Below the pieces are notes generated by a model. The model was not told where the DNA came from. It saw only the letters and a program-made list of their open reading frames with translations, and did no database searches. The translations under genes and the position numbers were made by a program. This document shows positions 28,201 through 60,000 of a stretch of 60,000 bases of DNA, piece after piece; position 1 is the stretch's first letter, and each line of letters begins with the position of its first letter. This DNA is from Bolinopsis microptera. Taxonomy: Eukaryota; Ctenophora; Tentaculata; Lobata; Bolinopsidae. Where the stretch lies: the NCBI RefSeq assembly GCF_026151205.1, contig NC_087076.1, forward strand, positions 14,123,675 through 14,183,674, written 5' to 3'.

Positions 28201-28241
28201 ATGGCAATTCAATCTTGGAATGGGCTGTGAGCAAGACATGA
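25230..28241 (+). pseudogene. LINE ORF2: APE endonuclease and reverse transcriptase, broken
   Basis: The endonuclease part shows NIQGMNPG, the catalytic-type LTETHL, VGVYRPP, AGDFNLP and SDHDIV. The reverse transcriptase shows GPDKFP, NYRPVSL, HGFQAGRSC, LDFSKAFDKVDH (motif A), SGVPQGTVLGPLLF (B) and FADDS (C). The C-terminal part, to 28241, includes ITEYCCALWSP and SFPSVASALYN, usual for CR1/Jockey elements. Frame is lost near 26.86 kb and again near 27.17 kb, and a TAG stands in frame near 27444 where a Trp or similar is expected. The frame can otherwise be followed throughout, so the lesions are few and the insertion is not very old. Confidence 0.85.
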
Positions 28242-29962: not shown

Positions 29963-30454
29963 TATTAATTCTCCAATAATTTTGGAAAAAAAGACATTTT
30001 TATTGGTGCTTTCTGTAAGAGTCAGGCGAACACCCTATTTTAGTTACATCAAAATAACTTCTGTGAATCAAAAGAGCATTTTAATTTCAAAGACCTAAAT
30101 TGCAGTGGATCAGAATGTTTTCAATACTGTCTAGTCCATATCGATTGTATGAGAACTTAGTGAGCAATTTCTTGGGATTGGCCATTTTTGGGAACCCTGA
30201 TGGAAATTTGTGCGAACAATAGAATCATGCATACAATAGATTCCTCTGTGCTCAGTTTCTGTCTATGTAGTTTCCTGTCAGTATTCTTACTCGGGATAAG
30301 AACTATATGTCACGTAGACTACTGTAGAGAACATTAAAACAATTTATTTTTGTCTAATCCGTACTGAAATCTAACCAATATCTTACAGTCTAGATATGTG
30401 ATGCAATCTCGAATGGAATTAAAGGAATTAGAAAGCTGGTAGTTTAAATCTCAA
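29963..30454. other. 5' flank of the plus-strand RA/coiled-coil gene
   Basis: About 490 bp between the tandem duplication and the first ATG. It should include the promoter and 5' UTR unless an upstream non-coding exon exists. No core promoter motif is clear. Confidence 0.4.
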
Positions 30455-31104
30455 ATGGCTCATCCAGATGCATCTCCTGGAAAAATCAAGGGGCGGGGAA
30501 CAAAGGCTCGTAAGACGAGAGTGATTAAAAGGGAAACTTATTCACGTCGTGATTTCAAAGGTTTGTTCAAATCAAATTTGTAACACTCTTACTTTAATAT
30601 TGTATTAACTTTACAGTTTATATTCTATCTTTTAATACCTCCAGGATCTTATACTTATCTTGCTTTCAGGATATAAAAGTGGCGAGGAAATATATGATAC
30701 AATAACAAAACTTATTGGTAAGAACTTTATTTTAATGATATTAATAATTTACTGCTAGGATGGATCTAGCTTTAATAGCTGTTTGTTTTATTCTATAGCA
30801 ATAGATACATGCTACCGGTCATGTCTTAACTCTTGTGGTCGACTTGTGGTTGAAACCGATGTAACTTTCATTTCTATTAAATCACACCTTTTACTGCTTT
30901 GTCATGTATCAGGTAACACATACCTGTTACATCCTTTTGTTGGTGTACACTGTATTAATTAACCAGTATTCATTGAATCATACATATCTTCCTTGTAGAT
31001 AACATCCTCTTTTGCAGCGGAAGAAAACATCGAGCCTGGCAAAAGAGAAGGCATCTACTGTACAGTGTACAAACATCTCCAGTCCAATGCCAGAACTTCA
31101 ATGA
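30455..31104 (+). CDS. N-terminal exons of the RA/coiled-coil gene
   Basis: The ATG at 30455 opens [20 protein letters not shown], a Lys/Arg-rich tail resembling a nuclear-localisation or acidic-surface-binding segment. The second exon adds [15 protein letters not shown]. The fourth exon (31018-31104) uses a strong CTCTTTTGCAG acceptor and reads [20 protein letters not shown]. An alternative acceptor at 30998 opens another frame but ends in phase 2 and does not fit the next exon. Exon 30799-30912 (frame [16 protein letters not shown]) is phase 1 to 1, can be skipped without harm, and is Cys- and Leu-rich unlike its neighbours; it may be intron sequence. Confidence 0.65.
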
Positions 31105-37100: not shown

Positions 37101-38795
37101 TTGTAGCTACTTTTTCTATTAAATTCAAAACTTTAGTACATTAATTATATTATCAATAAAAAATAGTTTTAAACAACTGAAAAACGAATTTTACTGATTG
37201 TACATAATTTCTTTATGATGAAACATTCCAGCACGTCCCTGAGTTCATTTTTAACTTCGAAAATTTCTAAACTACTGTATAATATTAATAAGTCAAGTAA
37301 AATAAGTAAATACTCGATTTTCTCTCAAATATCATTTATCAGTGTTAAGTGTTTGTTATCAGTAAGTTATTAGTGTTATTTATAATTGCTCCATCCAGAG
37401 CATAGCTCGCATGACTAAAGCTAGATAAAAATGTCTCTCCGGGCCAGCCAGGGATACGTAAGGTTGAATGTTTTTGGAGAATTTCCAGTGTATTTCATAT
37501 CATTTGTAATCAGGTTTTAGGAGGCTCAGGGGCTCTGCTTACAAATCACAACATACCAATGTATTGAATGTATCAAGTGTCATGTAAAAATATTACGTTT
37601 GTGTAAGCACGCTAGTCAGTATATTAATCTCAGTTCTACTTACTACTACAGCTACTGTCGTGCTATTGTAGCACCACAAATTAATCCTTTGTTGCATTTG
37701 GAGGGAAACACACAATATCAGGCTTAAATTCTTCGTAAAACTACATCATTATTTGTTATCTAGTAGTGCTGAAAGTATTAAAAACTTAAGACATAAACCT
37801 CAAGAGTAGCAGTGCTACTACTGACGTGCTACTGTAGTATATTAATATCAGTAGTAGCACGACATATTATTTGATACAAGACAACCGCTCCCACCATTAC
37901 TCTCGGGCGGGATTGGATTAAGAATCTTCGAACTACATTAAGTATATCACTACACTCCTTTTGTAACATCCAGAATGAATATATTTACAAATTCAATATA
38001 TATTATGACATTGGGCAGCCTGACTGTAATGAAATAATCTCACTGTATAAAAGTAGCTGTCTTCAGTGCTTGTATTTATCCAGGAGAAGTAACTAGGATA
38101 CCTTCAGTGCTTGTATTTATCGTATCCAGGAGAAGTAACTAGGATACCTTCAGTGCTTGTATTTATCATATCCAGGAGAAGTAACTAGGATACCTTAGGA
38201 GAGTAACTAGTAACCGTGTTTTGTAACTTTTAGTGACAGTGACACCCTGTAGTAAATAGTGTATTATATAATATACTATTTCTTCTAGAGGGGGGGGTGT
38301 CACGTCCGTCTATGTCCGCTTGTCTCATAGAATCCAAAAAGGACAGGACATAGGCGGACATAGGCGGACATAGGCGGACATAGACGGACAGAGGCGGACA
38401 TAGGCGGACATAGACGGACATAGGCGGACATAGGCGGACATTAATGGACACCTAAATTGCTAAATAAAATGATCAATTTTTGCTGTTATAGGGGGGATCA
38501 TGTTTTTTGTCCGTTCGGTACCCTATATTTTCAAAACGGACAAAAATAGAGCGGACAAAAACGGACAAAAATGGACAAAAACGGACAAAAATGGAAATAA
38601 CATTTAGATGCTTCCTCCTCCTACTCTTCCTCCTCCTCCCCCTGGGTCTTCCTGATCTTCCTCAGTCCTCTTCCTCCTCCCCTCCTCAGTCCTCCTCCTA
38701 CTCGTCCTCAGTCCTCCTCATCAGTCCTCAACAGTCCTCCTCCTCCCCAGTCCTCCTCCTCCTCCTGAGTCCTCCTCCTGGGTCCTCCTCCTGGG

Positions 38796-38827
<32 letters not shown>

Positions 38828-41800
38828 CTCAGTCCTCAGTCCTCCTCCTCATCCTTCTCCTCAGTCCTCCATCCTCCTCCTCAGTCCTCCCCCAGTCCCC
38901 CTCCTCCTCCTCCTCCTATTCAGTCCTCCTCCTCCTCCTCCTCCTTTTCAGTCCTCCTCAGTCCTCCTCCTCCTCCTCCTCCTCTTCCCTCTCAGTCATC
39001 CTCCTCCTCCTCCTCCTCTTCCCTCTCAGTCATCCTCCTCAGTCCTCCTCCTCAGTCCTCAGTCCTCCTCCTTCCTCCTCCTTCTGGGTCGTCCTCCTCC
39101 TCTTCATCCTCCTCCTCTTCCTCCTCGGTCCTCAGTCCTCCTCCTGGGTCCTCCTTCTCATCAGTCCTCCTCCTCCCCAGTCCTCTCCCAGTCCCCCTCC
39201 TTCTCCTCCTCCTATTCAGTCCTCCTCCTCCTCAGTTCTCCTCAGTCCTCCTTCTCATTTCTCCTAAGTCCTCCTCCTGAGTCCTCCTCCTCTTCCTTCT
39301 GAGTCCTCCTCCTGAGTCCTCCTCCTCCTCCCTCTCAGTCATCCTCCTCAGTCATCCTCCTCAGCCATCCTCCCCAGCCATCCTCCTCAGCCATTCTCCT
39401 CAGTACTCCTCAGTCCTCCTCCTTCTCAGTCATCGTCAGTCCTCCTCCTCAGTCCTCCTCAGTCCTCCTCCTCCTCCTGAGTCCTCCTCCTCCTCCTCCT
39501 GGGTCCTCCTGGGTCTTCCTGATCCTCCCCAGTCCTCTTCCTCCTCCCCTCCTCAGTCCTCCTCCTACTCTTCCTCCTCGTCCTCAGTCCTCCTCATCAG
39601 TCCTCAACAGTTCTCCTCCTCCTCCTCCTGGGGCCTTTTCCTGGGTCCTCCTCCTGGGTCCTCCTCCTCCTGGGTCCTCCTCCTCCTGGGTCCTCCTTCT
39701 CCTCCTCATTCCTTCTCCTCCTCCTCCTCAGTCCTCTTCCTCCTCTTCCTCCTCCTCCTCCCTCTCAGTCATCCTCCTCAGCCATCCTCCTCAGTCCTCC
39801 TCCTTCTCAGTCCTCCTCCTGAGTCATCCTCCTCAGTTCTCCTCCTCCTCCTCCTAGGTCCTCCTTCTGGGTCCTCCTCCTCCTCCTCCTCCTGGGTCTT
39901 CCTGATCCTTCTCCTCCCTCTCAGTCATCCTCCTCAGTCATCCTCCTCAGTCATCCTCCTCAGTCATCCTCCTCAGTCATCCTCCTCAGCCATCCTTCTC
40001 AGCCATCCTCTTCAGTACTCTTCAGTACTCTTCAGTACTCTTCAGTCCTCTAAATGTTTGTCTGCTAATGTCCACCAATGTCCGCTAATGTCCACCAATG
40101 TCCATCCAAGTCCGCCAATGTCCGTCCGGGTCCGCCAATGTCCGTCCGAGTCCGCCAATGTCCGTCCGAGTCCGCCAATGTCCGTCCGAGTCCGCCAATG
40201 TCCGTCCGTGTCCGCCAATGTCCCAAAAAACACGTCCGTTGTCTCATAGAATCCAAAAAGGACAGGACATAGGCGGACATAGACGGACATGACACCCCCC
40301 CCTCTAGAGCAGTCTGGGACTCTGGAAAATGTCAAACTTTCATCACTCAAAAAATCCTGTCTAAAAACGACTAAGAATAGACGTTATTAATTTCCCCCCG
40401 TGTGTGTAAAGTTGTGAAGTCTGGGTGAGCTGTTTGTGGCTGACACCCAGTCCACTGTACCTGTCAAGGAACCGCTGTGTGTCAGTGTAATATCCACAAG
40501 GAACTTCAATATTAATACACGATTAGTGAAGAGTTACTAATTTCCTTGTGAAGTCACGTGGTAGGCAGACAGTCACGTGATCAGCTAAACGTGTAGGTAC
40601 TCTTTGTAATGAAAGTACATTTGATCAGAGACTAGGTAAGTTCTAGTGTTTTGATCGGGGTGTTAGACCTCCAGCGAGCAAAAATACCCAATTTATAGAT
40701 TGTTTGGGAAATCACGGGAGTTTGCCGTGAGCTATTCCTCCTTTGAAGTGAGTTCATTATCAGTAAACCTGCTTTAACAATTAACATTGTGAGGCAACAT
40801 CTTAAGAAATGGGCAGGTTGTAATACAAAACTTCAAATGTAACAATCACTTAATACCATGTACATTGTACAAGTGAACTAGAATATAAGGTAAATGTAAC
40901 GCCACTAATTATTATTTTCCTCTCAGTTCCACCTCCCTCACCAGTTACCCACTTACCCAACTTACCCACTTACCCACTTACCCCAACTTACCCACTTACC
41001 CTTACTTTTCTCCAATTATATAAACACGGTCCACACTAACTCTTTAATAAAGTGAGAGAGTGTACTACACGGCCCAGTGAGCCGTGGTTACCCTCTAAAG
41101 AACACGGTAGTCTAGTTATAGTAGTCCCTAACTCCGTGTAAATTGTACAATACTATTATAGGTAGCAGCCAGTAGGGTGTGTACTGTAAAGTATGTACTG
41201 TTACCCTGAGTACATTGTGTGTAGATTGTACCACTAAAACTAGCAGGTTGTTACCACTATAAAGTACACTCTATGTAGATTGCATGTAGATTGTAGTACA
41301 TGTAGATAGCAGGGTGTGGGGTACTCTCAGTGGTTAACGACCAGTTCTTTACCGCCAGATCCCCTTTGTTCCACAACGACCCCCCACCTACAAATACCAG
41401 ACAAGTTACACGGGGAGTTGGTAGAGGAGGAGTATAAATAGAGAAGAGAGAGAGGGAAGAGAGACTCATTCCTGAACCACAATAATACAGGTTAATGCGG
41501 GTTAATCTAGTGGTGTATTTAGACAGGACTATACCGCTCTGATTATCTTGATATTATCCCCGGATTAGTTGGCAGGGGGATGCTTGCGGAGGGAGGGTGC
41601 CGTAATTACCGCTGTGGTTGGCTGGACTAATTTAGAGCACGTGGTGTCCTCCAATTGTGAGTGTGGTTTCCAGGCGGAGGAGCGGGAGGAGATACATTGT
41701 GATACGTTTAGAAGAGGGGGTTTGATGTGGTGTATTTAATGTGGGGCGGAGTAAGTGTATCTCTGAACAGAGAACTTGGCTTAGCTCTGTGAATAGAAAC

Positions 41801-44800: not shown

Positions 44801-47800
44801 GGGCCCGGTTGAATATCTCCACATCACAGCTTACTCTTACAAACTTTGCAAAGTTGGTATTTTGAGTTTTGGGTATCTGAGTCATGAGTACGTTTTATCT
44901 CTCTGTGTGAAATACCCTCATCTCACTGTCGATTTATTGGCAGAATAAATGAAAATAGATGTGATATATCGCTCTAAGATCCTGTAAATAAATAAAAACC
45001 ACCTAATTTTAACCAAAATAACAAACAATTAACCATAGTATCTATCTCCACAGCTGGCAAGCACACGAAAGTACTGTACCCACACCAGTATCCGCTACAA
45101 GAACTGGGCGAGGCCCCCAAAGTGGAGATGAACAGCAATGATGGCCTCCCACGTGTTACGAACAGCTATTTGTATGTGTCTCCGCGCGACGCCCAGGAGC
45201 TCACTATCTTCTATCGCAGGGTTAGTTTATCAAACTCAATATTCAGACCCTTACGTACTTTGGTTTTGTGCTGTAATTCAAATTCTGAGGGGCAGCAATG
45301 TACTGTGACGTCATAGTTTCAGATTCGTTTGTCAGTATCGAGTTTCGGCTCTGTGACAATAACGTAGCTATAGCCCCTAACAAATACCATGACATAAATG
45401 TGACCCTGTTACATTCCCCCCAGAAAGACGGAAATGTCCAAGAAGAAACACTGTCCCTTCGCCCCAGTGCCACTGCTCAGGAGATAATCGACGAATCACT
45501 CCAGAGTTTTGACGAACTTGATAACGACCCTCTGGCGTACAGACTTATCATGAAGGCTTACGAGTTCGGTAAGAAGTGTTGTTTGTACTGACTGTACTGA
45601 CTGTGGTCTACTGACAACTTACTACTGACTTTTATGTTGCGACAGATTAACTGAGTTCTGCTTTTGTTTACACGGGTCTATGATAACGCCATTTCTTAGT
45701 CGTGATATCACATTAACATAAAGATAAAACCGGGCATTCCATGCTGAAGTGGCAAAACGCGCGCATATGCGCGCGTTTGCGTTACAGTAAATGCTAGCAA
45801 CATCCACTTTTACGCACTTTTGTAATCAAAGTCTTCAATGTTACTTCACTATAAAGACGCGCAAAGTTGCAAATATTCTCACGATAATTCTGTGATGATT
45901 GAGGAATTTGGCTGAGTTCCAGGAAATTCCTGATAGTAAGCACTACACAGTCTATTGTCTGTCTGCGCTGCTATCGACATGCAATTACCAGAAACTGAAC
46001 TGAAATTGCCTGTCGCTTCACAGTTCGCGAAATAAGCTCATTTCAAAAGCTGTCTAGTTTCTGGAAGAGAACAAGTTATCTCCCGGTATTAGGATGGCAG
46101 GTTTCTTTCTGTGGCCGTGGGTCGGTGCTCGACTGGTCGCTATGACCATTGCAAAGTAAGATATAAGAGTCCTATGCTTAGCCCGGTTGAATTCTGTGAG
46201 ATCGGTATGTAGATTGATCGATCAGGTATGGCGAATGGCAGTTGGAAATTTGGACGTGCACGTTAAATTAAAAAATAAGCTTTATTATTAACTGTCGTTA
46301 TAAAAACAGTATTAGCTATAGCATAGTATAGGACTTTAAAGTACACCATGAAATAAAGAAGCCACATCCATAATTTGACGTTGACAATTAACGCGACATA
46401 TTAAAAACTGCCGTTGATAGCGGCCTCGACTTAACTTGTTGACTTGTTCCTTACTGTACAGACCCTTTGTTCGTTTGACAACACTGACAATTTACACCTC
46501 GTGTTTGTTTTGCTATTGTTGTTTGTGTGTTAAAGACCGACGAGACTCGCAACTTAAAGAGACAACTTTGCAGATGAGAAGACGATAGGCTTGGAGGATC
46601 AGCCCCTAGTTCTGTTGGACACTATTGAAGACTGCCAGGAGGGGTACCCTCAAATCTGGATTGAGGATCAGGAGGTAATTGGGTGTTGGAACTATTCTGT
46701 AATCTTAATATTTTATCTCTGTATTGAAATATTTTATTCGTTTGCTTCTTAAAGAAGTCGTGAACTTCATTATTATGAGCATATTTTGTCAACCGCTAGG
46801 AATATCGAAATAAATTCCTCTTATCTCTGCAGATTGCTGAGGTATCTCGATCGAACTCTTTTGTTCGGAAACACTCCTCTCGGCGTGCCTCAAGGAAAAA
46901 GGCTCGGCCCACCGCTGATCCAATAACCTCTACACCAGCGGACACTCAGACAGATATACACAAGGGATCAGTTGAAAAACCTCCTCCCCTTGTATTGGAG
47001 GAAAGCAAGATTCCACGTCTAAATTCCACATCTGAAATATCTAAAATCCAGGTGCGCAATAACATCAGGATGTGGTTTCATTCCGCAGAATCTAAATAAG
47101 TTTTTAATGTACATTATCATGTTGACACAGTATCGCACATAGTTTGCCGTGCTTTTTATAGCACAGTTTTTGTTAAACTTAACTTTTGGATAACTTTGAC
47201 ATGATTATAATGAACAATATTATTTCAGAGTCATCTACACCACACATCACTCCGTCGAAAGACACAGAGTACCAAAAGCGTTGGCGAGATAAAGGCGCAG
47301 GAATCTGATCTAAAGAGCATCCTCATGGAGCAAGAAAAAGTAATCTCCGCTCTGAATAACGCAGTGAGCAATGCGGAGAGCATCAGTCCTCAAAGCAGCG
47401 TCAAGGATGTTTCACCTACTAAGTTGAAGGAAGCACTGGCCGAGAAACAAACTCAGATCTGGGAGTTGGAGGAGAATCAAAACAAAGACAGGGAAGCTCT
47501 ATTGAATCTCACAACAACTTATAAAGTGTTGGAAGGGAAGTTCAAAGACCAAGAAGAGAAATTCAGACAATTCAAACTCTCAGCGAAAAATGAAGTTGAG
47601 ATGGAAAAGCGAGAGAAGCGTGAGGCACAAAAGGAAGTCGAACGACTGAATGCTGAAAAACCTGATGAGCTTGAAGCGCTTTACGATCAAACAGTTGGCA
47701 ATGATGATTTAGAGAACAGAATGTCGGAACTCAAACTTCAAGTTGACAAAGACCAAGAAATTATAGACATTACCACGAACCGCAATGCTGAACTTAAAGA

Positions 47801-50800
47801 CGAAATTAGACATCTTAAAAACACCATTGCTGATCTAAAAGTCTCTAAGGACACCAACAAGTTGGAAGTGGATGGACTCCAACGATCAGGCACTGGTATC
47901 AGTGATAGTATATCTATCAACGACTTCACCGAATGGTCAAAAGATTTAGATGACTTGAAGAAGAGAAACGATCAGCTTCTCTTCAGAAACAAGCAACTCA
48001 GCTCTGACAACATCAAACTCACCGAGCTAATAGACCAGAACAAGTCCACAGTCAAGCAAGCGGCTGAACTAAAAGGAGAAAACAGACAACTTAAAGACGC
48101 TAACGAGGAACTGAATATATCGGTACAGGCAAAAGAAGCGGAGATAGCCAGCTTGAACGAACGTATCCAGAGCTCTCAAGACCAGGATGGTTCGTTCGAT
48201 GAGTATCAAGAAAAGTACTACGATTTGTACGAACAGAATCAGCGCCTTGAATCTGTCATGTCCGGAACGATTGAGAAACTGAGATCAAAGCTGAACGTCT
48301 TAGAGGATGATAAGGTGCAGCTTCAAAACACGATCAATGGTTTGAACACTGGGCTCGAGGGAAAGAAACGACAGCTCAAAGAATACGACTACATGAAGAA
48401 CAGAGTGGAAATGATGGAAATGGAACACACGCATCTCAAGGAGTTTTCATCTCAACTTATTGATGAGAACAAAGCTATTGACGGATTGAACAAGACTGTC
48501 GATGAAAAGGAGCAAAAGATAAGCGAACTCGATGTAGTTATCCAGGACATGCAAACAGAGCTAATCCAGCTTCGAGGACTAGAAAAAGTGAACTGTGCAA
48601 TTCAGGTTGAAGACCCTCGCATTGAAGAACTTGAGTCGAGAGTGGAGGAAGCTCTTGGTAAGATAGAGAGTAGGAACGCTGTTGTTGAGAACATGAATCA
48701 CAAGCTAACTCAACGAGAGGAAGAAGTTTCTAACCTAAAGGGAATGGCTACCGATTTTGAGAACACAAACGAACTGTTGACCGCTGAGATCGATCGTTTG
48801 AAGAAGCACAATGCATCTCTGGAGAGTAAAGGAACCAAGAAAACCGATGAGATTGCAAGTTTCAAGATGATTATTGACGCTTTGAACGAGCAGATTTCAT
48901 CGTCCAAATCTTTGTGTGAAGATGAAAGTTGTCCTAGTGCAATACGGCTTAAAGACGAACATGTTAAGAAGGAAGTGGAGATGGAAAGCCTTCTCAAAGA
49001 TTCTCAAATCAACTTCAACAACTATTCCAGTGTAACAGGCGAGTTGGCAGGTCTTCAATCTAAGTATGATGAACTACAGGACGATTTCAGTATCTTGGAG
49101 GCTGATAAAACTGACGCAGAAGAGACTGTCAAGGCACAAGAGAAATCTATCGAAGAAAAGAGCGAGAAAATAACAGATCTCATGGATCTGAATTCTTCGT
49201 TACGGGATGAAGTAGATCGTGGAAACGAAAAATTCGATATCATAACGTCAAAGAGAGATGAGTTAGCATCAGAGTTAACCCAAGCAAGACTGAAGAAAGC
49301 TGACACAGAATCTGAGTTAAACCAGGTCCAAGACGAAGTTCGAGCCCACCAAAGAAAGGTCAAACAATCAAGAGATCAAGCAGAGTCTCTGCAGAATCTC
49401 AATGATGCACTCACTGCTCAACTTCATGAGATGAAATCAAACGATTGTTCTGAAGGGAAATGTGCCGCTGTTCTCGACCTCTCGAAGACTGTTGAAAGTA
49501 AGGAACAAGAGAAAGCTGAACTTTCTGCTCTGGTTGAAGACTTGAGGGGCCAAAGAAAGGATCTTCAAAATGTTGTAATTAAGTCAAAGAACGACCTCGC
49601 TGAAAGCCAGATCGATTACCAAGAAATGGAAGCCACCTACCTTGAAGCTAAAGAACAAGCTGATTCATTCAAAGGCCAAATCAGGGGATTACAACGAAGG
49701 CTTGATCCCAAGAAGAAGAAAGATCATATCGACAACCTAGAAAACCAGGTAGAGATGTACCAATGCGAAGTCATGAGCTTGAAATCTGTGACAAGAGCGA
49801 TGGAAGACGAAGTCGAGAAAATGTCTATAGCCGAGCAAGACAACACTGATGTTGTCCAGAGGCTGAACAAGAAGAACTCCTCTCTAGAGATACAGCTCGG
49901 TGATGCTAAGGGAGAGATCTATGATCTCGAGCAGCAACTTGAAAAGTTCACGGAAAGTCTCCGATCGAGCCAAGAGGAAAGTGCTACTGTTGAAATGTAT
50001 CTCAGTGAACGTCAGATGCTGAAGGATACTATTGGTCATCTGGAGAAGGAGAACAAGGAACTTTCTGCCGATAGGGATGGTGTGAAATCATCGCTGACTT
50101 CTGTCAAAGAAGAATTGTCCATAGTGAAAGGAGTGAGAGATATTCAAACCCGCGACTCTGCCTCAACCCTACAAACTGCAATGAGATCGAGGAAGACTAT
50201 CGAGGTTAAGGAAGAGGAAATTAACTTCCTAAAAGAAGAAGTCGAAGCCAAAACCAACGAGTGTTCACGCCAAGTTGACATTATTGAACGGCACAGAAAT
50301 CGAACTCGTGATCTTGAAATCGAGTTGAAGGCGGCTAAGAATCAGCTTGTCGGTGGTTTGACCAACGGAATCGAGATAGAATCCCACGTAAAATCTGCAG
50401 CGAACAATGACGATCCAACGCACCACAAACTCGATGGTCTGAATTCAACAATCGCAGATCTGTCCTCCACTTTAAGATCTTTAACCACAGAGAACCTAAT
50501 GCTCGAGACTTCCATCTCCGAAATGAATGAAGAGGAGCAATTACGTCAGAACAAGATCGCAGAATTAGAAGCAAGCTTCCACGAGGAGGTAGAGCATCTG
50601 CACGAGGAATACAAATCAAAGATTTGCACTCAGACTGAAGAAATAAAGAAATGGATCAACCAAAACAAGATTCTAAGCGAGGAGATTCTGATGCTGGAGC
50701 AGGACAAGGAGGATCTGGAGAAAATGAACGCTAGAGGTAATCAGATACCAGATCACGTAGAAATGCAGGATGCTCTTCAAGAGGTCACTAAAGAACTTAA

Positions 50801-51989
50801 CGTTCAGGGTAGGATGGCTCAAAAATCTCAAGCTCAGCTCGAGGAGGCTCAGCAACAAAATGAAAATTTAGAATCTGAAATGATGGCCTTCAAGAAGAAG
50901 TGTGTGGCTGCAGAAAAGACGATAGACGACTTGTCGATGAGGCTTCAAGAAAACGATATAACTGTCGATGAGTACAAGCAGAGGTTTGAAGATTTGCAGA
51001 CAGCAGATGAAAACAAGAGAACTGAGATCAGGTTGTTAAACAAAATGGTCAAGGAATATTCTAACAAAGCTGAAGAATCCGAGCACGATTTTGTTGATTT
51101 GAAAGGAAAGTACAAGGAGAAGAAACACCATATTGAAGAGTTGCAGAAGGAGTTAGTTCTTCTCCGGAGTCAAAATGCTGAGTACGAAAATGTAATTGTT
51201 GCTCTCGAATCAACGAACGCAACAGATACCATCGACAACTCTTCAAAATCACGACGAATTAACGAACTTCAATCACTCTTAACAGAAACCGAGGGTGTAG
51301 CAAACCAAAAAGCCACAGAGCTGGAAACGACAAAACAAGAAATAAGTCGTCTTCATGAAGAAAACGAACAAATGTTGGAGGAAGTGAAAAGTTATCAGGA
51401 CGAATGGAGACGGTTGACGTCACTGCTCAGTAATGTTAACCATACAAATCATGCTAACATGGACTCTTGTAAACGATTGGAAACTAAACTGGACGATATC
51501 GAGTACAAAGTTAGTGAAACAAACGTTCATATTGATGTTTGTCAAGGTGATATGTTCTCAAAAACTGAGGCATTGGTCCGTGAAAATTCTCTTTTGGAAC
51601 AGAAAATCGCCGAGAAGAGTTACAGTATAGAACAAAGTGACAAGTTTTTGAAAGAATCTCACGATAACATATCTTTGTTGCAGAATACAATGGCTGAGCT
51701 CCAGGACCGTATTGAAGAATTGCAGGGGAAACCCTCGACTCCCTCAAATCCGGGCACCGACCCCTCTGATCTCACTGGCCAGATTCAAGCTCTCTCAGAC
51801 GAGCTAGAGGAGAAAAACGAACTTTTACTCGAGGCAAAGATAGAGAAAGAGAGCGATGAATCAGCTTTTAAAGTGAGCTTAGACACTATAGTTCGTAGTT
51901 ACGAGGACAAAGTTGAGTCGCTTATCAGTGAGTCCGAACAGAAAGACAACGAGATTCAGAAACTGAAAATTGAGCTTGAGTCTAGGTAG
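30455..51989 (+). CDS. RA-domain giant coiled-coil protein (cassette A isoform)
   Basis: Exons with matching phases: 30455-30560, 30670-30717, (optional 30799-30912), 31018-31104, 32055-32229, 32853-32971, 36607-36666, 45054-45220, 45424-45568, 46574-46674, 46833-47051, 47229-51989. Without the optional exon the sum is 5,988 nt, exactly 1,995 codons plus stop. In order the protein has a basic N-terminus ([18 protein letters not shown]), an RA/ubiquitin-like fold ([20 protein letters not shown]... [10 protein letters not shown]), a linker, a canonical RA domain across two exons, a Ser/Arg-rich linker and about 1,560 residues of coiled coil. RA domains bind Ras/Rap-type GTPases; linking a GTPase signal to a filament or membrane scaffold is inference. 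I do not recognise an orthologue. Confidence 0.85.
31172..31269. repeat. Long near-perfect inverted repeat
   Basis: TTGTCTGCAAATATGTTAAA... on the left is matched by its complement ending at 31269, with arms of about 40 bp around an AT-rich centre and a 7-nt insertion in the left arm. It lies in the intron between 31104 and 32055. It would form a strong hairpin in the pre-mRNA. Confidence 0.9.
32055..32971 (+). CDS. First RA/ubiquitin-like region (two exons)
   Basis: Exon 32055-32229 reads [19 protein letters not shown] and then [20 protein letters not shown]. Exon 32853-32971 continues [20 protein letters not shown] and ends KTPFK. The pattern of two beta strands, a helix starting TTAEDLV, then DYQLSVV fits an RA or other ubiquitin-superfold domain. 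It is more divergent than the second RA domain, so the family call is tentative. Confidence 0.6.
32972..36606. other. 3.6-kb intron
   Basis: Contains a roughly 24-bp tandem repeat at 35013-35092 (units built on TCTGTGTCAGAGATCAAACA). No gene was recognised among the small ORFs. A spurious exon-like stretch at 36507-36570 is listed under rejected items. Confidence 0.5.
35013..35092. repeat. About 24-bp tandem repeat, three to four units
   Basis: Units of CTGTGTCAGAGATCAAACA with drift in the last one or two, inside an intron of the RA gene. Confidence 0.8.
36667..38060. other. First part of the 8.4-kb intron
   Basis: AT-rich sequence following the 60-nt exon 36607-36666. No coding or RNA feature seen. 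Confidence 0.5.
38061..38196. repeat. About 46-bp tandem repeat, three copies
   Basis: CTTCAGTGCTTGTATTTAT ... CCAGGAGAAGTAACTAGGAT recurs three times. The first copy lacks the CGTAT/CATAT pentamer and is shorter. It lies about 95 bp before element X copy 2. Confidence 0.85.
38291..40302. mobile_element. Element X, copy 2 (without LINE)
   Basis: Begins with a G-run and TGTCACGTCCGTCTATGTCC and ends with the complement followed by a C-run. TCTAGAG is repeated directly on both sides (38284-38290 and 40303-40309). Internally it follows copy 1 block by block: GGACATAGGCGG repeats, CGGACAAAAA block, TCC-rich core of about 1.4 kb, and the GTCCGCCAAT array. It shows the uninterrupted sequence into which the LINE of copy 1 inserted. 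The ORF at 38507-39280 is low-complexity repeat sequence. It sits in the intron between exons 36607-36666 and 45054-45220. Confidence 0.85.
40944..41005. repeat. (CTTACCCA)n array
   Basis: Seven or so imperfect units of ACTTACCC(A/C). Confidence 0.75.
43348..43371. repeat. (CT)n microsatellite
   Basis: About eleven CT dinucleotides. Confidence 0.85.
45054..46674 (+). CDS. Canonical RA domain region, split over exons
   Basis: Exon 45054-45220 leads in ([20 protein letters not shown]...). Exon 45424-45568 holds the first half of the domain: [20 protein letters not shown] and [15 protein letters not shown]. Exon 46574-46674, entered in phase 1 and left in phase 0, holds the second half: [18 protein letters not shown] and [10 protein letters not shown]. 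The order strand, TAQEII helix, 'YRLIMKA' strand, L-x-D-x-x-PL matches the RA domain pattern. A second copy of only the last exon exists at 55992-56107. Confidence 0.8.
45755..45778. repeat. 24-bp perfect palindrome
   Basis: AAACGCGCGCAT followed by its exact complement, with no spacer. It sits in the intron between the two halves of the RA domain (45569-46573). It contains eight CpG steps in AT-rich DNA. Confidence 0.85.
46833..51989 (+). CDS. Cassette A: Ser/Arg linker and 4.76-kb coiled-coil exon
   Basis: Exon 46833-47051 (73 codons) is basic and Ser-rich ([16 protein letters not shown]). Exon 47229-51989 enters in phase 0 and is one uninterrupted frame of about 1,586 codons, almost wholly heptad-type. 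It contains the block [15 protein letters not shown], also found in cassette B, and two CX4C motifs (Cys codons at 48915 and 49446), each preceded by 'ALNEQI' or 'ALTAQL'. A Pro-rich break ([15 protein letters not shown]) lies near 51.73 kb. The TAG at 51987 overlaps a possible donor (CTAG|GTAGCG), but no in-phase acceptor was found, so the stop is preferred. Confidence 0.85.
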
Positions 51990-52117
51990 CGATTTTGAGT
52001 ATTTTGGAGCTCCTTTTTTCTCTCAGACTGTTTCATCTTTCAATCTATAGTCGAGCTCAGTTTCATGCTCCATAGACCATAGAGCGAGTTTTAGGAGTAG
52101 AGTGCAGAGTGACTTTA

Positions 52118-52631
52118 GGGGTCGTTCACATATTACGTAATCAATATTTTAGCGATTTTTACCCCCCCCCCCCCCCCCCCTCCGTAATCAACCGTAATCA
52201 AGATCCAACCCCCCCCCCCCCCTTCCTGACAGCAATATTACGTAATCATAGCCTGACCCCCTTCCCTTGACTTTTTTCCCTAGAAAACACTTTTCTCTAC
52301 GTTTCATGCTACCCTAATGCTATCATGGTGAGCCGAAATAATTGTTATGATATCCGGCCAAGCACCTTCTAAACTACTATTATAGCCGGATATTCGATAA
52401 ATTTCTAAATTTTATCACTATCAGAGTGAAATTGAGTGGAATTTGAATTAAAATATTTTCAAATTGTTGGTTATTCTATGGGTAAAAAAGAAAATTTTGA
52501 TTACGTAATCAACGACCAAACCCCCCCCCCCCCCCCACCCCCCACCCCCCCCCCCCCCCCCCCCCCCGTAATCAACCATAAGCATTTGGAACCCCCCCCC
52601 TCGGCTGATTACGTAATATGTGAACGACCCC
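52118..52631. mobile_element. PIF/Harbinger-like MITE, copy 1, with long C tracts
   Basis: The ends GGGGTCGTTCACATATTACG and complement are flanked by TTA on both sides (52115-52117, 52632-52634). A 3-bp TTA/TAA duplication is the PIF/Harbinger hallmark. The interior repeats CCGTAATCAACCGTAATCA next to C runs of up to about 20. It starts about 130 bp after the cassette A stop codon, so it probably lies in the 3' UTR or just beyond. No transposase. Confidence 0.8.
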
Positions 52632-54046
52632 TTATGTGTGGTTTCCCATCAGAGAATGACATGTTTGTACTGATACTAGTCGAGTGCTGTGTTATATATG
52701 CGAAATCAAACCAATTCATCTTTTAATTTTATCTGAATTATTGGCGTTTTGACAAAGTTTTATAATTTAAAAACAGTTTAATCTGTTACAAATGTTGGTA
52801 ATGGATTTGATTTATGTATTTACAATTTATGTTTTGACTACCGATGGATTGTCGACTTCCCCCGAAAAAGCATGTATTTGAATCACATTTCAATATTTTT
52901 ATATGAGTTTCATCATGATTATATCACTTCATATTTTCAACGTTTTATTTTATGAAAGTTTTAAAAAGTATGATCGTATTCTGACGAATAGAACGCATTT
53001 CTCGTTCGGTTTTCGACTGTATTGTAAATACTGACCTGTTTACAGTTGAGGACCGAACTGATTCGAGATGCTATTTTTATGAAGTATGTTAATCTTTTGG
53101 CTTTAGGTGTTAGGGAATTTTCGTGAGTCTTTTAGTTTTATGTTCCCAGATATAGTAGGCTTCCTGTCGCTATAACAGAGTTTTTAGCGTTTTGTTCACG
53201 CTTGTGGAATGTGGGTTCGTTTGAACATTTGAGTATTTATTTATTGGATTTTGTTGTGATAGGTACTTACCAGCAGCTGAAACACAACTGTCGTTGATGA
53301 CATTTTGCTACTTCGAACTTCAAAAACATTGAGTTTTAGGCTTCGTAATTTAAATAATGATATTTTCAAATAGTTTTTTTTTTCAGAAGAAAACTGTTTT
53401 AGTAGCAATAAGTTTTAACAGAAATGTCCGTTTATTTACAGCGTTGCAACTGCAGCAAGGTTTTGTAGTTCTTTTGGGAACCGATCAAAGCGAACTGTTT
53501 TCTTGCCATTCGTCGTCAGATTTTAAGGGTCGCACCGTCCGATCCGGATTCTGTTCCAAAAGTTTCCTTCAAAATAATTTGTGTTCCATAGACTTTTCTG
53601 GTTATGGTGACTGTTTCAGAAAGGGTTAGTTGTTACTGTTAGGGTAAGGTTCAATTATGTTCAACTTCAAGGCTAGGGTATAGGATTAAGGTCAAAATGC
53701 TTGATACTGATAGCATAGGAAACTCTCAAATCCGGGTGCTAGGAGCTAGGGCAACGTGAACCGAAATTAAAGATGTAGGAATCTTAACCTGCATGCAGGA
53801 ACAAGATCTGAAAACGACAGTGGCAAAAAAGCGGAATGTCCCAAAGATTGCCCTTATCAATATCATGATACAGGTTAAGTTGTGTAAAGATTTTGTTGAT
53901 AATACGGTGGTTTTATTTGTAAAATATCCAAACATGAAAAAGTTAAATCTTTAATAGTCTAATTATCATAACCTCAATCGTGTCTTACACAGTGAACTCA
54001 ATAATTAATCATTCAAGAAAAATTCAGCCATAACAGTGCAAGTTTT

Positions 54047-54145
54047 GGTCAAGGGGACGGCAGAAAAGCTCCTCTTCAAAAATCGTCCAAAATCTCTTTT
54101 TATATTCTGATGATTTTCTGAAGCTTTCTTTAGGAATAGAACTTT
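54047..54145. repeat. About 100-bp dispersed repeat, copy 1
   Basis: GGTCAAGGGGACGGCAGAAA ... AAGCTTTCTTTAGGAATAGA is repeated at 55837-55932 with about 85-90% identity. The second copy ends 60 bp before the duplicated RA half-exon. Confidence 0.75.
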
Positions 54146-54190
54146 GAATAAATCGTGTCTTGTGCCATCGTCAGTGAACTCATTAATTAA

Positions 54191-54735
54191 GGGAGCCTTC
54201 ACATATGACGTCAGCAGGGGAGGAGGGTTTAGAAATGCTGATTGCTGACGGGGGGAGAGGTGTCTGAGCCTTGCTGTCGTCAGCAAAAATACGTGAATTT
54301 TGGCACAAATTTTTGCTTCAAATAAATTTTATTAACAATACAAGATTCCTAATTTCCTTAAAATTAGTACTTGAACTGAACTCTGTTGACCAACTGCTTA
54401 AATCAGTCACACACTAATATTACCTGCCTACAGTTACACCCGGACACTCCCCTCAGCATTTCTATATACCCTTGTATCACGTCGTGACCCCCATTGTCGT
54501 TTCACTTATCGGGGCGAAACACTCGTGCGCGGCTGGCCTACAACGTATGGGCATGGCAACTATACACTTACGTTTTACAGACATACCCCTAACTGGCTGA
54601 CATGATCCTGTCTGCGGGGCTGCGGGGTATGTATTAAGTAAGGGGGCCGGGGGTCGCTCAATGCTGACAGGGGGTAAATTGTAAAATTGGCCTAAATCGA
54701 TTGGCCTTAATCTTGCTGACGTCATTTGTGAACGC
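54191..54735. mobile_element. MITE with TTAA duplication and an empty-site relative
   Basis: The left end GGGAGCCTTCACATATGACG and the right-end complement GCGTTCACAAATGACGTCAG match imperfectly over about 20 bp. TTAA flanks both sides (54187-54190, 54736-54739). A nearby sequence at 53993-54043 (GTGAACTCAATAATTAATCA and following) matches the two flanks joined together, so it is a paralogous empty site. TTAA suggests piggyBac, but the GTTCACA-type end resembles the Harbinger-like MITE at 52118, so the family is open. No protein is encoded. Confidence 0.65.
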
Positions 54736-54919
54736 TTAATCATTCAAAAAAATCAGTCAAAACAGTGACATTTTTGACGGATCATAGTAATAGTAATACC
54801 GCTCCTACTAAATCGCTCGCCCAAATTTTAAGAAAATTCTTGTGAAAACTGAAATCGGTGTATTTTGGACGCTGATTCCGAATCACTCCCATGACGTTGA
54901 CCATTGTTAATGATTTGGC

Positions 54920-55017
54920 CCGGCGCGCGCTACTTCGTAGCACTTGCCATCGATATTTTGAGCACTTGCCATCGATATTTCGAGAAGAAAGCGGTGCGCG
55001 CTACTTCGAAGAAATTT
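54920..55017. repeat. CpG-rich inverted repeat, left arm
   Basis: CGGCGCGCGCTACTTCGTAG, a doubled GCACTTGCCATCGATATTT and CGAGAAGAAAGCGG pair with 55468-55545, where the same strings appear as complements (TTCTTCGAAGTAACGCGCGC, CTTTCTTCTCGAAATAT). The arms enclose the GC-rich repeat copies d and e. Confidence 0.7.
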
Positions 55018-55115
55018 AAACGGTTAACATCCGTCAACCCATGACGTAGGGTATAAAAAATGCTTTTATGTAAAAACCTTTTTGTACGGCTGCAAAACCA
55101 TTGTAGATTTAAGTT

Positions 55116-55183
55116 AATAACCTACGAGGAGTACGCGCGCCGAGTTGGATTAAAACAAATATTTTACGAGTATCACCCGTTAA
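55116..55183 (-). repeat. GC-rich dispersed repeat, copy d
   Basis: Inverted copy: ACGCGCGCCGAGTTGGATTA ... ATTTTACGAGTATCACCCGT. Same family as the copies at 20.0-21.0 kb. Confidence 0.75.
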
Positions 55184-55354
55184 CAAAACTATAAAAACCA
55201 AAGTCACGTGAAATTTTTGGGTGAGCAAATTATATTATTATTTATATTAATAAGACTAAAAGCCGGATAATACTTTACCTGGGGACCTCAGGCTATCATA
55301 TTCACAAACATAAATAGAGATTCGGCGGAATGACAGGCTGAGCGCGGCCCAGTT

Positions 55355-55758
55355 TGTAGGTTTATAACCTACCAGGACGCGCGCCGAGTTGGACTAATAT
55401 TGGACAAATATTTTACTAGTATCACCCGTTAAGGCCCAGTAAGATAATATTTGTCTAATGTCTAAATTTCTTCGAAGTAACGCGCGCCGCTTTCTTCTCG
55501 AAATATTAGCCCGAGGCAAGTTAAGTGCTACGAAGTAGGACATATTCAAAATTTTCATTGTTGTTAGTTGTTTTCAAAGTTGTTAGTTGCATCAAAAGGT
55601 TTTCCGGATATACTGGTTCCAGTACTAATTGATGGTGACTTGAATTGTGTTAACGGGTGATACTCGTAAAATATTTGTTCCAAAGTATATTTGTTCCAGG
55701 ACCGTCGACGAGTCCAACTCTGAACTCGGCGCGCGTCCTGGTAGGTTATAAACCTACA
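55355..55758. repeat. Foldback made of GC-rich repeat copies e (-) and f (+)
   Basis: Copy e (55355-55432) begins TAGGTTTATAACCTACCAGG. Copy f (55651-55758) ends CCTGGTAGGTTATAAACCTA. They are inverted with respect to each other, with GGGTGATACTCGTAAAATAT on the inner sides. The outer ends carry a small palindrome (GTAGGTTTATAACCTAC). This may be a complete foldback transposon of about 400 bp whose single arms occur elsewhere as solo copies. Confidence 0.7.
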
Positions 55759-55991
55759 AGAATTGTGTCACTCTCACCGACCTCACTGATTTAATTGGTC
55801 ATTCATTGTTCATGGTGGAAATTTTAGTCAAATTCCGGTCAAGGGGACGGCAAAAAAGCTCATCTTCCAAATATCTCTTTTTATATTTTGATGATTTTCC
55901 GTTTATCAAAGCTTTCTTTAGGAATGGAACTTGGTCATTGCGAATGAACGTTACATGATATTAATATATAAGCACCCCGTAACATGTTCAG

Positions 55992-58900
55992 ATCACGGAG
56001 AGGAACTAGAAGATAAAGACAGACCACTACACATGACATTGTACGATCCAGAGCAGCACACAGAGGGATACCCACGGATCTATATTGAATCCAGATACCT
56101 TGATAAGGTATACTAGTATAGTGGGAATACTAATCAGTATTTGTATATGAGCTGCTATAATTTAGTGGTGCTTATGTACTAGTAGTACAATACAGTCGTA
56201 GTGAAGTGAGGCGACATGATCACCATGTTTCACGCTGACAAGTATTATACTAAGGGGTCGTTCACATATTAAGTAATCAGCCGAGGGGGAGGGGGTTTCC
56301 AAATGATTACGGTTGATTACGGGAGGGGGGGGGGGGTGGGTAAGTAGTTTGGAAGGTGCTTGGCCGGATATCATAACAATGATTTCGGCTCATAATGATC
56401 ACGGTAGCATGAAACGTAGAGAAGTGTTTTCTAGGGAAAAAAAGGGGGGGGGGGGGGGGGGCCATGATTACGTAATTTTGCTGTCAGGAGGGGTGGGGGT
56501 GGGTCTTGATTACGGTTGATTACGGTTGATTACGGAGGGGGGGGGGGGGGGTAAAAATTGCTACAATATTGATTATTGATTACGTAATATGTGAACGACC
56601 CCTAATTGTTATTTTATGTACAGCACACTGTGTGTCAGTGAATTACTAGCTTAAATGTATGTGTTTCAGGATAATAAATCGTTGCAAAGCACAAGTAAGA
56701 CCAGTTTAAAGTCTAACGGTTCCAAAGTATTCGCCTACTCTGTCTCCAGCAATAAAACCACCCCCGAACCTGATCAGAGCCTCTCCTCCGACAACACAGA
56801 GTCCGCTAAATTCATAACACTCTCCAACAATGTACATGAAGTAGAAGCACTCTTCACCATGAACGACAAGAAGTTGATTCAAGGCAAACAATCCGAAGCA
56901 GAATTAAGACAAAAGTTCAAAAACCTTGTTGTTGCTTTTGAGGAGGAGAAACATTCAAAGGACAAGCTAAGATTAAAAAGAGATAAGATGAAAGCACAGC
57001 TGAAAGAAGCGACAGAGGCTTTACTTGAAGCACAAATGGACAATGGGGAGCTTATCAAACATCTAAAAGATGAAGAATCACAAAAACAGTTCTACCAAGT
57101 GGAATGCACTAGCCTAAAAGATGAAATTGAATTGCTAAAGCGAAAACTTCACGTGTTAGAGTCACTGGAAAAAGAAAGAAGGGAAAAAGTGGACGAGGAT
57201 GCTGACTCAACTGGTCTTCTGCGTTTAGAGAGCCAGCTAAGCATGGATTGTGAAATGAATTATAAAACTCTGTACGATGGAATGTCAACTAGACACCAGG
57301 AGATGGAGGGAATCATGTCAGGAACAATCGAGAGAATGAAGATGGAGCTGAGCGATCTGAAATTAGAAAACTTGGGGCTCCAGACCAAGAACTGTGAGTT
57401 ATCAGAAAAGGTGGAGGTTTTGGAACCTAAGTGGAAGGAGAAGACAAAGGAACTGGACAATATACATGAAATGATAGAAGCTCTGAATATGCAGATTGTT
57501 GAAGTGCAGGAGAAGTGTAGCCAAGGTCTCTGTGTGTCTGGACAACAACTTGAAAAAGAGCTAAAAGAAAAGGATGACATTATGAATACCCTGCAATCTC
57601 AACTGAGCAAATCCAGGATGAAGCGGAAAGAATTAAACAATGCGATGGCTACGCTGGAAAAACAAGTCAGTGAGATGGAGAACTCGAGGAATAAAGCGGA
57701 CGAAAAGTACATCGAGCTAGTAAAGGAAGCCGAGCAGCTAAAATGTAAACTTGTGGATAGGGATGAACTCTGTAACTCCGGTTGCTGCTCAAGTGGAATG
57801 AAATCTGTCAGCAAAGATAGCGAAACAAAGTACATCGTTAAGAACAGAGAAGATACGATCACAACCCTTAGTGCAAAGGTAGAAAAGTTAACTGGAAAGA
57901 AAGATGAGCTGAGAAAAGAATTAGCTGTTTACAAAATGGAGATGATCAACAATGAAAATATCACAAAAGAAACCGAGAGGCTAAACCGAAAACTGACAAA
58001 CGAACTAGCCAGCCTAAAAGAAGAAATTACGATGTCCAGGAGGAGATGTGAAGATGGGAGTTGTCGATCAGGCAGCGCTAAAGAGTCAGAACTGTTAGCA
58101 GAAACCAGAGCAGAGCTCAATATCAGGAGAAAAGAATGTCAGGAGTTTGTGGAAGAAATTGCTGACAATAGGAGGAAACTTTCAGAGCTTTGCAGGACGC
58201 GTGACGATCTGAAGACAAAAGTTAGTGATTTAGAAGCAATGCTGGAAAAAACGAAGACACACAGTAGACTGTTGACAAACGAGACTGTGTCTCTGAGTAC
58301 TCAACTAGCGGATATGGAGAGGAAGCTGGAAGTGGAGACTTCCAAACGAGAGGATAGCGAGCAGAAAGATGTTCAAGCCACGGCAATTGATACTGTGGAG
58401 AAACATGATAAGCTTCTCCCAATCTCAAGGACAAGCTCCCAAGTATCTTCCCTTTCAGATTTCATGCAGCAAATTAGTGGTGGAACTGAAAAGGAGGAAA
58501 ATAGTGTACCAGAGTCTGATGAATTATCAGAAGCACGCAAGAAAATATCGCGGCAGAAAGAGAAGATCAAAAACCTTAAAACAGAATATCTGAATCTAAA
58601 AGACCTGGTTTCAGAAACTAATGCACAGATTTATGATATCATGTCAGGTGAAAAACTCTGCGTCAGACCTTCTTGTAAAGAACTCGGCACAAAGTGGACA
58701 AATCAATGACGGAAATTGATCTCTTAAAGTCAAAATTGGAGCACGTAGAAATGAAAAACATAGATCTTACTGTGGACCTAACCACGACGACAAATAAATT
58801 TTCCAAGAAACGCGAAGACTACACCTCTCTTCAAGGTCTTCTTCGGACAACCTTGGAAAACTGCAAGGAGCTGGAAAGAAAAGTGAAGTCCCAATCTGCA

Positions 58901-59146
58901 GCTCTAGAAGTAGCTAAAGTAAAAGGGTGGGCTGTGACTGTGGAGCCACCATCAGAATATAGGGAGGAAGGTTTGAGGGGAGAGCAAAAACAGTTCGGGT
59001 ACAATAAACAGACGAGAGTACAGTTAGATGAGAATATTCAACAAAACAGTCCAAGAGTAAGAGAGTCAAGGCAAGGCAGAACAGCTCAGAGAGTAAGATC
59101 TCCGTCTCGGAACTTGTCATCTCTAATGGCAAATTTTGAGAATTAA
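55992..59146 (+). CDS. Cassette B: duplicated RA second half plus coiled-coil exon
   Basis: Exon 55992-56107 (phase 1 in, phase 0 out, as in 46574-46674) reads HGEELEDKDRPLHMTLYDPE and YPRIYIESRYLDK, matching cassette A's [13 protein letters not shown] and [10 protein letters not shown]. Exon 56670 onward enters in phase 0 and encodes a Ser/Thr-rich linker, then about 620 residues of coiled coil with QEMEGIMSGTIERMK and four CX4C motifs (57516, 57771, 58047, 58659). The frame stops at 58707-58709, but the overlapping frame from 58679 continues the coiled coil and ends in a basic tail (RVRSPSRNLSSLMANFEN) at 59146. No first-half RA exon or promoter is seen, so it may be used as an alternative 3' cassette of the upstream gene, or be a truncated duplicate. 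Confidence 0.75.
56254..56602. mobile_element. PIF/Harbinger-like MITE, copy 2, inverted
   Basis: Ends GGGGTCGTTCACATATTAAG / complement, flanked by TAA on both sides (56251-56253, 56603-56605). It is the reverse orientation of the copy at 52118-52631 and carries G runs where that copy has C runs. It lies in the intron between the RA half-exon and the coiled-coil exon of cassette B. Confidence 0.8.
58679..58709 (+). other. Frame break inside cassette B coiled coil
   Basis: Frame 1 ends KELGTKWTNQ-stop at 58707-58709. The -1 frame is open from 58679 and has an ATG at 58706 overlapping that stop (ATGA). The sequence after the break (MTEIDLLKSKLEHVEMKN) is clean coiled coil. The simplest reading is a one-base indel or assembly error. 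A spliced microintron, translational frameshift or an intended stop are alternatives. Confidence 0.7.
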
Positions 59147-59587
59147 ATGAAGTACTTTAAAAGCTTAGTACAGAGTTAGAAGTATGACGTATGTTTTTGA
59201 GATATTGGACACAATGGCAGACATTTTGCTGGAAAAATGATTCTTTACTTTTACTGTTGTAGTGATTTCGTATTCATAGTGGCAGTGATATTAAAATGGA
59301 AGCATTACTGTTTTTGGGAAAGACATGTTGTTGTACGACAGTAAGTAATTGTGGATGCTGTGACACTGTGAGAAATATTTACTATTTGCTAATTAAATTG
59401 AAATTGCTCTTTCAATTATTGATAAATCGTATTGCTACTGAAAATGTATCATGATACTTTCAAAAATTTTATTGATAGTCAAAGTTAAGTCGTTTGAGAC
59501 TAAAGTATTCACAGATTTTCGTGTCGATATCAATTTTAGGTTTGTAGGCTTCTAATAAATATGTAGTAATAATTCAAATAATTTCAG
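59147..59587. other. Spacer / 3' flank between cassette B and the next exon
   Basis: AT-rich, 441 bp. An AATAAA occurs in CTAATAAATATG near 59554, very close to the next acceptor at 59587. No other feature. Confidence 0.5.
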
Positions 59588-60000
59588 CGGCAATCGATGC
59601 TGACCAGAAGCGAATCTTGGGACAAACTTCTGCTACCACCAGAAATTCTCCAAGTGCCCCAAGTGGTGACCAACTTCAAACCCGGACACAATCGAAACCC
59701 ATCTGAACTTTCTCACGTTTTCTCCCACAACGAAACGCAACTCTTGGAAGAACTTGAGTATCTGGAACACGCGAACAAATCTCTAGAAAACGAGGTAGAG
59801 AACTTGATCATGTCAGAAAAGTCACTCCAAAGAAAACTTCGTGACGCAAAATTAGAGCTGGAAATGTTGATTGAAAGAGTGGAAACTGTAAAATCTGAGA
59901 AGAAAGCTGTTGAGATAGAACGAGACAAACAAAAGAAGAGTTCGAAGAAGCAGAAGAAGAAAATTCGAGAGTTACAAAAGAAGAAAGATGATATTGAGAA
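59588..60000 (+). CDS. Start of a third coiled-coil exon, runs off the window
   Basis: After the acceptor AATAATTTCAG the phase-0 frame opens RQSMLTRSESWDKLLLPPEI, then a Pro-containing linker (FKPGHNRNPSELSHVFSHNE) and lysine-rich coiled coil (KQKKSSKKQKKKIRELQKKK) to the last base. It is the third phase-0 coiled-coil exon of the locus and again begins with a non-helical linker. It may be the next exon after cassette B (in-phase AGA|GTAAGA donors exist near 59053 and 59092) or a separate cassette C. The visible part has no CX4C motif. Confidence 0.75.

Follow-up and report, generated by a model that had tools for sequence, protein, structure and literature searches.

A ctenophore locus at which two 3' cassettes may complete the same RA domain

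The window analysed here is a stretch of 60,000 nucleotides of the Bolinopsis microptera genome (C5:14123675-14183674), the plus strand of which holds what would be a single gene with a tandem RA front (a weak RA1 and a clearer RA2) and a long coiled-coil rod. The best single reading of the 3' region, one that we hold tentatively and place slightly below an even chance, is that it comprises alternative and mutually exclusive 3' cassettes. The 3' part of the gene, that is the back half of RA2 together with the rod, would have been duplicated in tandem long ago, and the two copies would serve, now or until recently, as mutually exclusive ends: the donor at 45568 would be joined either to 46574, leading to rod A and its stop at 51989, or to 55992, leading to rod B. 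Either cassette would complete the same RA2 fold, retaining the GTPase-facing strands and changing the back face and the rod.

This would amount to a splice choice made within a globular domain: a GTPase-facing half of RA2 common to both forms would be joined to one back half or the other, each bringing its own rod, with a third rod (rod C) as a possible further end, so that one GTPase input would lead to different back-face partners and scaffolds. We regard this fuller proposal as possible, with the chances leaning against it. The reading frames, exon borders and RA scores permit the junction of 45568 to 55992, as the earlier note on this DNA had proposed for its single front half; the splice itself, its regulation and any function we infer from the genomic sequence.

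Gene model and exon structure

The plus-strand gene model consists of exons 32055-32229, 32853-32971, 45054-45220 and 45424-45568, followed by the cassette A exons 46574-46674, 46833-47051 and 47229-51989, and it assumes ATG 32063 as the start and no further exons upstream. Joined in this way, model A is open for 1892 residues from ATG 32063 to TAG 51989, and model B is open for 917 residues, up to a frameshift stop. The first modelled exon (32055-32229) has AG/GT borders, is open in the model, leaves in phase 2, is matched in the own-genome protein search described below and would encode beta1 of the weak RA1; the predicted start codon lies 8 nt past its acceptor. Exon 32853-32971 (phase 2 in, phase 1 out) would supply the remainder of the RA1 front half, and exon 45054-45220 (phase 1 in, phase 0 out) is the proposed source of both the RA1 back half and beta1 of RA2. 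Next comes the shared RA2 front half, beta2-alpha1-beta3, in exon 45424-45568 (phase 0 in, phase 1 out), which is identified by its borders and frame. The earlier note had placed the front half of the RA domain in this exon; it takes in the preceding exon as well, beta1 being at the end of 45054-45220.

The candidate RA2 back halves lie at 46574-46674 (cassette A) and 55992-56107 (cassette B). The phases given for these two exons and for exon 45424-45568 in the earlier note are correct, and all three have AG/GT borders and open frames. Because both back halves run from phase 1 to phase 0, the second cannot follow the first in frame. A simple splice score was applied to the plus strand of the window, where 721 open candidates of this length lead from phase 1 into phase 0; back half B is among the 35 that satisfy both limits of the score, and back half A, with a low-scoring acceptor, is not.

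Each back half had been said to lead into its own giant coiled-coil exon in phase 0. Rods are present in both cassettes, although in cassette A a linker exon (46833-47051, phase 0 in and out, with AG/GT borders and an open frame) comes first, ahead of the rod exon at 47229-51989, which encodes 1586 residues and ends in TAG. The rod exon of cassette B is open over 56670-58709 (679 residues, to TGA), although it carries one frameshift, beyond which a continuation in another frame (58679-59146, to TAA) is indicated by codon score. The third phase-0 coiled-coil exon does open at 59588 as described, with an acceptor and an open, 3.5-residue periodic frame that extends past the end of the window at 60000 to 60958. 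This rod C exon lacks an RA half and has an in-frame ATG 9 nt past its acceptor; its start fits in frame after 46574-46674, after 46833-47051 or after 55992-56107; its membership of the gene is uncertain.

Several other elements were seen in and beyond the window. Tandem simple repeats at 7547-8012 and 12621-12995 read as KHTNITNTQTLQT and Asp-Cys runs. Low-complexity arrays at 22624-23616, 28325-28708, 29281-29637 and 38492-40249 are Ser/Pro/Leu-rich in translation; the arrays of this region (22624-40249) have a very strong GC skew and near-identical tails and are repeated within the window. A reverse-transcriptase-type mobile element occupies 24921-28241, with a Pfam endonuclease domain in 24921-26897, and the open reading frames after 26897, up to 28241, look by eye like the remainder of this element. 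Past rod C, on the minus strand at joined positions 62109-69496, there are frames that by eye resemble an NDR/LATS-type kinase and a REV1-like polymerase.

Either back half would complete an RA domain

Profile searches used the Pfam RA model (PF00788), for which the curated cut-off is 21 bits. The RA2 front half scores 24.0 bits when joined to back half A and 25.0 bits when joined to back half B, compared with 18.1 bits for the front half alone and 17.6 bits for the front half joined to the start of rod C. Two scrambled versions, made by hand and so not exact permutations, score 20.0 and 17.6 bits, and with longer flanks the composites score 22.6 (A) and 25.2 (B) bits. The E-value of back half B was reached by none of 30 exact shuffles, which were taken from a set of 40; on these shuffles and the control composites, a chance RA likeness of back half B was rejected. 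The similarity of the two back halves to each other is modest by phmmer: with back half A as query, back half B was the top non-self match (E 0.034, the next being at 2.5) among 3789 six-frame pieces from 90 kb. A phmmer search of the PDB with the RA2 composites gave one chance-level match for each.

The upstream RA domain is weaker. The stop-to-stop piece around exon 32853-32971 scores 15.4 bits against the Pfam RA model, below the cut-off, and the RA1 front half scores 14.0 bits, rising to 18.8 bits (still below 21) when completed by exon 45054-45220. The whole tandem model shows two RA stretches, with totals of 39.6 bits (A) and 40.6 bits (B). Because RA1 rises to 18.8 bits and the tandem model contains two RA stretches, exon 45054-45220 seems both to end RA1 and to begin RA2. 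Alignment of RA1 with afadin RA1 was no better than alignment of shuffles, 269 of 300 of which equalled it.

The RA1 front half scores 21.3 bits with back half A and 21.4 bits with back half B, in each case above the 18.8 bits reached with its proposed own back half, which counts against this assignment of exon 45054-45220. Its junction to back half B is open for 813 residues. With its exit in phase 1, at 32971, this front half could in principle join cassette B, so the earlier note's count of a single first-half exon needs qualifying: a second copy of exon 45424-45568 was not found in the own-genome protein search at E<=10, although a weaker RA-like front half with the same exit phase lies upstream. 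The RA scores do not assign cassette B to one front half or the other.

The GTPase-facing side of RA2

RA2 aligns with afadin RA1 (PDB 6amb) without gaps over the first 39 residues. The score of this alignment was equalled by one of 300 shuffles for composite A and by three of 300 for composite B; alignment of RA2 with RalGDS was non-significant (150 of 300 shuffles equal), so the strand borders rest on afadin. The 39 aligned residues are presumably beta1, beta2 and alpha1. The swapped exon starts past them, in the beta3-beta4 loop, and we take it to be beta4-alpha2-beta5, on the far side of RA2. By the afadin RA1 alignment, beta1, beta2 and alpha1 are encoded by exons 45054-45220 and 45424-45568, which both cassettes share, and the earlier note's suggestion that the two composites would have different switch-facing strands is thus not borne out.

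Basic residues are a feature of the Ras-facing side of RA domains; they bear on binding and not on the fold, and many RA domains bind weakly. Two afadin RA1 lysines, K18 (in ATK) and K38 (in AEK) in the numbering of the aligned piece, correspond to E and S in RA2, so that strong Ras binding is doubtful for both composites. In the KRas-Rgl2 complex, beta1, beta2 and alpha1 of the RA domain are described as touching Ras in an arrangement like that of HRas-RalGDS (PMC10576006), and across RA/RB domains beta2 contacts are described and two conserved basic positions named (PMC8163975). Since the Ras-contacting elements are encoded by shared exons, the switch-facing surface would be common to both isoforms; what the choice of back half would alter is the rod and, on the domain itself, beta4, alpha2 and beta5 of the back face, leaving the GTPase face as it is.

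The rods

A 3.5-residue periodicity runs through all three rods (for B, through its first frame); in each case none of 500 shuffles reached it. That of the rod B tail is non-significant (23 of 500 shuffles equal). Rods A and B share about 24% identity, with a BLASTP E-value of 6.9e-6 or 2.0e-4 depending on direction, and their local score of 260 was equalled by none of 100 heptad-preserving shuffles, the maximum among which was 255. Together these values relate rods A and B to each other weakly. For rod C no kinship to either emerged, as eight (A) and three (B) of 100 heptad-preserving shuffles equalled the score. Assignment of the rods to known families was likewise set aside, there being no Pfam match above cut-off for rods A and B and the window part of rod C. 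In own-genome protein searches each rod found the query's own place only, at E<=0.001 for rods A (30 of 91 candidates scored) and C and at E<=1e-6 for rod B.

Rod B contains one frame change, its first frame being open over 56670-58709 and the other frame running to 59146. By codon scores trained on rods A and C, the first frame is preferred as far as the windows that start at 58590; the signal is mixed at 58620-58650, turns to the second frame between 58680 and about 59010, and is mixed again beyond. A protein made in the first frame would miss about 145 C-terminal residues. This is the one disabling change seen in rod B over about 2.5 kb, and it might stem from an error in the assembly. That a small intron takes the place of the frameshift was considered and, on inspection by eye, judged unlikely: the one phase-compatible pair would enclose about 48 nt, its acceptor is purine-rich and a CX4C motif would be lost.

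This motif occurs twice in rod A (47229-51989), four times in rod B (56670-58709) and once in rod C (59588-60958). These counts were reached by nine, none and 412 of 5000 shuffles respectively, and so stand above shuffles in rods A and B. The motif might be a metal-binding or turn element. A search of the PDB for CX4C relatives found none, the profile giving a single match at E 0.3.

Copy number, spacer and age of the duplication

Own-genome searches covered 264.65 Mb in 232 contigs. With the 233-residue N-terminal model as query, five places were found, all of them exons of this locus, and no second copy of back half B was detected by protein search at E<=10. A Pfam RA search of the genome returned four other RA places and missed the present locus, the RA exons of which are split, so its silence on a separate front half for cassette B is weak evidence.

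Closer to hand, the 4.0 kb spacer between the cassettes (51990-55991) contains no front half recognisable by local six-frame phmmer and BLAST searches with the known front half, which a very divergent one could escape, and the notion of a front half of B's own within the spacer was dropped on this result. Much of the spacer is repetitive. Within 54030-55940, ranges that match elsewhere in the genome sum to at least about 1.1 of 1.9 kb among the 40 of 6331 candidates scored, and this repeat-like DNA stops about 50 nt short of back half B. A short repeat at 52115-52635, in the spacer after rod A, has a reversed copy in the intron of cassette B (56251-56606); it has inverted ends and begins with GGGGTCGTTCACATATTACGTAATC-like letters. 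It could be that such repeats displaced, or took the place of, an earlier 5' half of B.

The codons of the two back halves give some idea of the age of the duplication. Over 33 aligned codons, 14 of 33 residues are identical, six of these with identical codons; first and second codon positions are alike at 38 of 66 sites, and third positions at 10 of 33, which is near chance. With silent positions near chance and the protein pattern kept, back half B appears to have been selected as protein long after duplication, and so both back halves would have evolved as protein over that time, as far as a sample of 33 codons can indicate. A constrained back half B suggests that it was joined to a front half, as it would otherwise be without evident use. 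This constraint is the best argument for joint use that we can offer from sequence comparison; a recent loss of 5' exons would look alike.

Spliced leaders and possible separate transcription

In the ctenophore Hormiphora a spliced leader is reported on at least 56% of Iso-Seq reads, and gene clusters there appeared to share a first exon owing to the leader (PMC8527503). A search of the B. microptera genome with the end of the Hormiphora leader, allowing three mismatches or fewer, gave 43 matches (31 plus, 12 minus), versus 20 for a reversed control. Eighteen of the 43 end in AATTTGAGGT, six of these at C13:12.81-12.89 Mb. Twelve others belong to one tandem array on C8 and do not end in AATTTGAGGT; this array (C8:7889746-7895419) has its 12 leader-end-like sites in steps of about 513-518 bases and may be another small RNA gene array. 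The C13 cluster of six leader-like sites (C13:12811466-12894453) includes L004, which, of three loci examined, looks like a leader gene, with AATTTGAG followed by GTAAG. The lineage thus probably trans-splices leaders, and separate transcription of cassette B is therefore a real rival to alternative splicing. Rod C, having an ATG just past its acceptor and no RA half, fits a leader-receiving gene of its own well. Back half B could receive a leader too, in which case translation would begin inside beta4.

Weighing the explanations

What favours the cassettes is that joining either back half lifts the front half above the RA cut-off, which it does not reach by itself, together with the shuffles of back half B, the open frames of both models, the codon pattern of the back halves and the failure of the searches to find another copy of the front-half exon, or any front half in the spacer. 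Against them stand the rod B frameshift, the modest match between back halves A and B (E 0.034), RA scores that fit B to either front half and the repeat-like character of more than half of 54030-55940. Had cassette B recently lost 5' exons of its own, the traces would look the same, and it is conceivable, if rather unlikely in our estimation, that B arose as a tandem copy of the gene, was stripped of its 5' exons by deletion or repeat insertion, is now decaying and is not spliced to the shared exons at all. The frameshift, the want of a front half belonging to B, the repeat DNA of 54030-55940 that reaches to about 50 nt before back half B and the short repeat shared by the spacer and B's intron are all as expected of such a duplicate. 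They have to be set against a rod that over about 2.5 kb has suffered a single disabling change and remains open for 679 residues, an RA half that scores as high as that of A, and the chance that the frameshift itself is an assembly error.

Another way of dispensing with the shared exons would be for B, and also C, to be transcription units of their own, B accepting a trans-spliced leader at 55992 or 56670 and C accepting one at 59588, with the RA half of B a leftover. The leader-like gene L004, the frequency of the leader in Hormiphora, where neighbours likewise seem to share a first exon (PMC8527503), and the start of rod C all accord with this, as does the first modelled exon of gene A, which likewise has an ATG shortly past its acceptor. 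For B, however, the first in-frame ATG of 55992-56107 lies inside the proposed beta4, which leaves the kept residues ahead of it unexplained, and back half B bears the mark of constraint; we consider this explanation improbable. Far less credible again is the earlier note's idea that the choice of back half alters the switch-facing strands and so selects the GTPase together with the rod. Both composites do exceed the RA cut-off and a back half could affect binding indirectly, but the contacts described for Ras (beta1, beta2 and alpha1; PMC10576006) fall, by the afadin RA1 alignment, in exons common to both composites, and the afadin lysines of ATK and AEK are replaced by E and S. Mutually exclusive cassettes that share a GTPase face thus remain our preferred, if tentative, reading.

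Comparison with known systems

Afadin's RA pair is followed by FHA, DIL and PDZ domains. In the scanned pieces of model A, no domain other than RA passes the Pfam cut-off, and there is therefore no FHA, DIL or PDZ domain in those pieces. The locus would resemble afadin/Canoe, with its tandem RA1-RA2 (PMC11698047), in a putative pair of RA domains near the N-terminus, of which RA2 aligns with afadin RA1 and RA1 scores below the cut-off; it differs from it in having a long coiled-coil rod and, in the pieces scanned, no FHA, DIL or PDZ. RASSF10 combines one RA domain with two coiled domains (PMC6966473). The order of RA and then coiled coil is common to both, whereas here there would be two RA domains and a far longer rod, and the comparison was made through the general RA model alone. 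In the ctenophore leader clusters, too, neighbouring units appear to share a 5' exon, although the shared piece there is a leader of 35-48 bp (PMC8527503) and here it would consist of coding exons. The literature retrieved on tandem RA domains with coiled coils, and on ctenophore alternative splicing with Iso-Seq, contained nothing on this gene. Iso-Seq reads are reported to have served in annotating Bolinopsis (PMC10232365).

In overall layout the closest parallel is the Drosophila lola locus, at which shared BTB exons are joined to unique C-terminal exons to give at least 20 isoforms (PMC1947980). In both cases common 5' coding exons are followed by several coding 3' ends on the same strand, and at the present locus the phases and open frames let A and B (and C) follow the shared exons. 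The common region of lola contains the whole BTB domain and its unique exons encode zinc fingers, whereas here the candidate switch point falls within a folded domain, two or three rods form the ends and the splicing is predicted.

Should B prove instead to be a trans-spliced unit or a decaying duplicate, the locus would represent an ordinary tandem duplication. If the cassettes are real, the locus would be a counterpart of lola, probably in an animal lineage that branched off very early, and its switch would lie inside rather than between domains; an effector could in this way retain its input surface while swapping scaffold and output side at once. Work on Canoe raises the possibility that RA domains have partners on their back face (PMC11698047), and a front half with two naturally occurring back halves would then allow such partners to be tested. 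A shared start with alternative 3' ends is a kind of arrangement already known; the unusual part would be a switch point that lies inside a folded domain.
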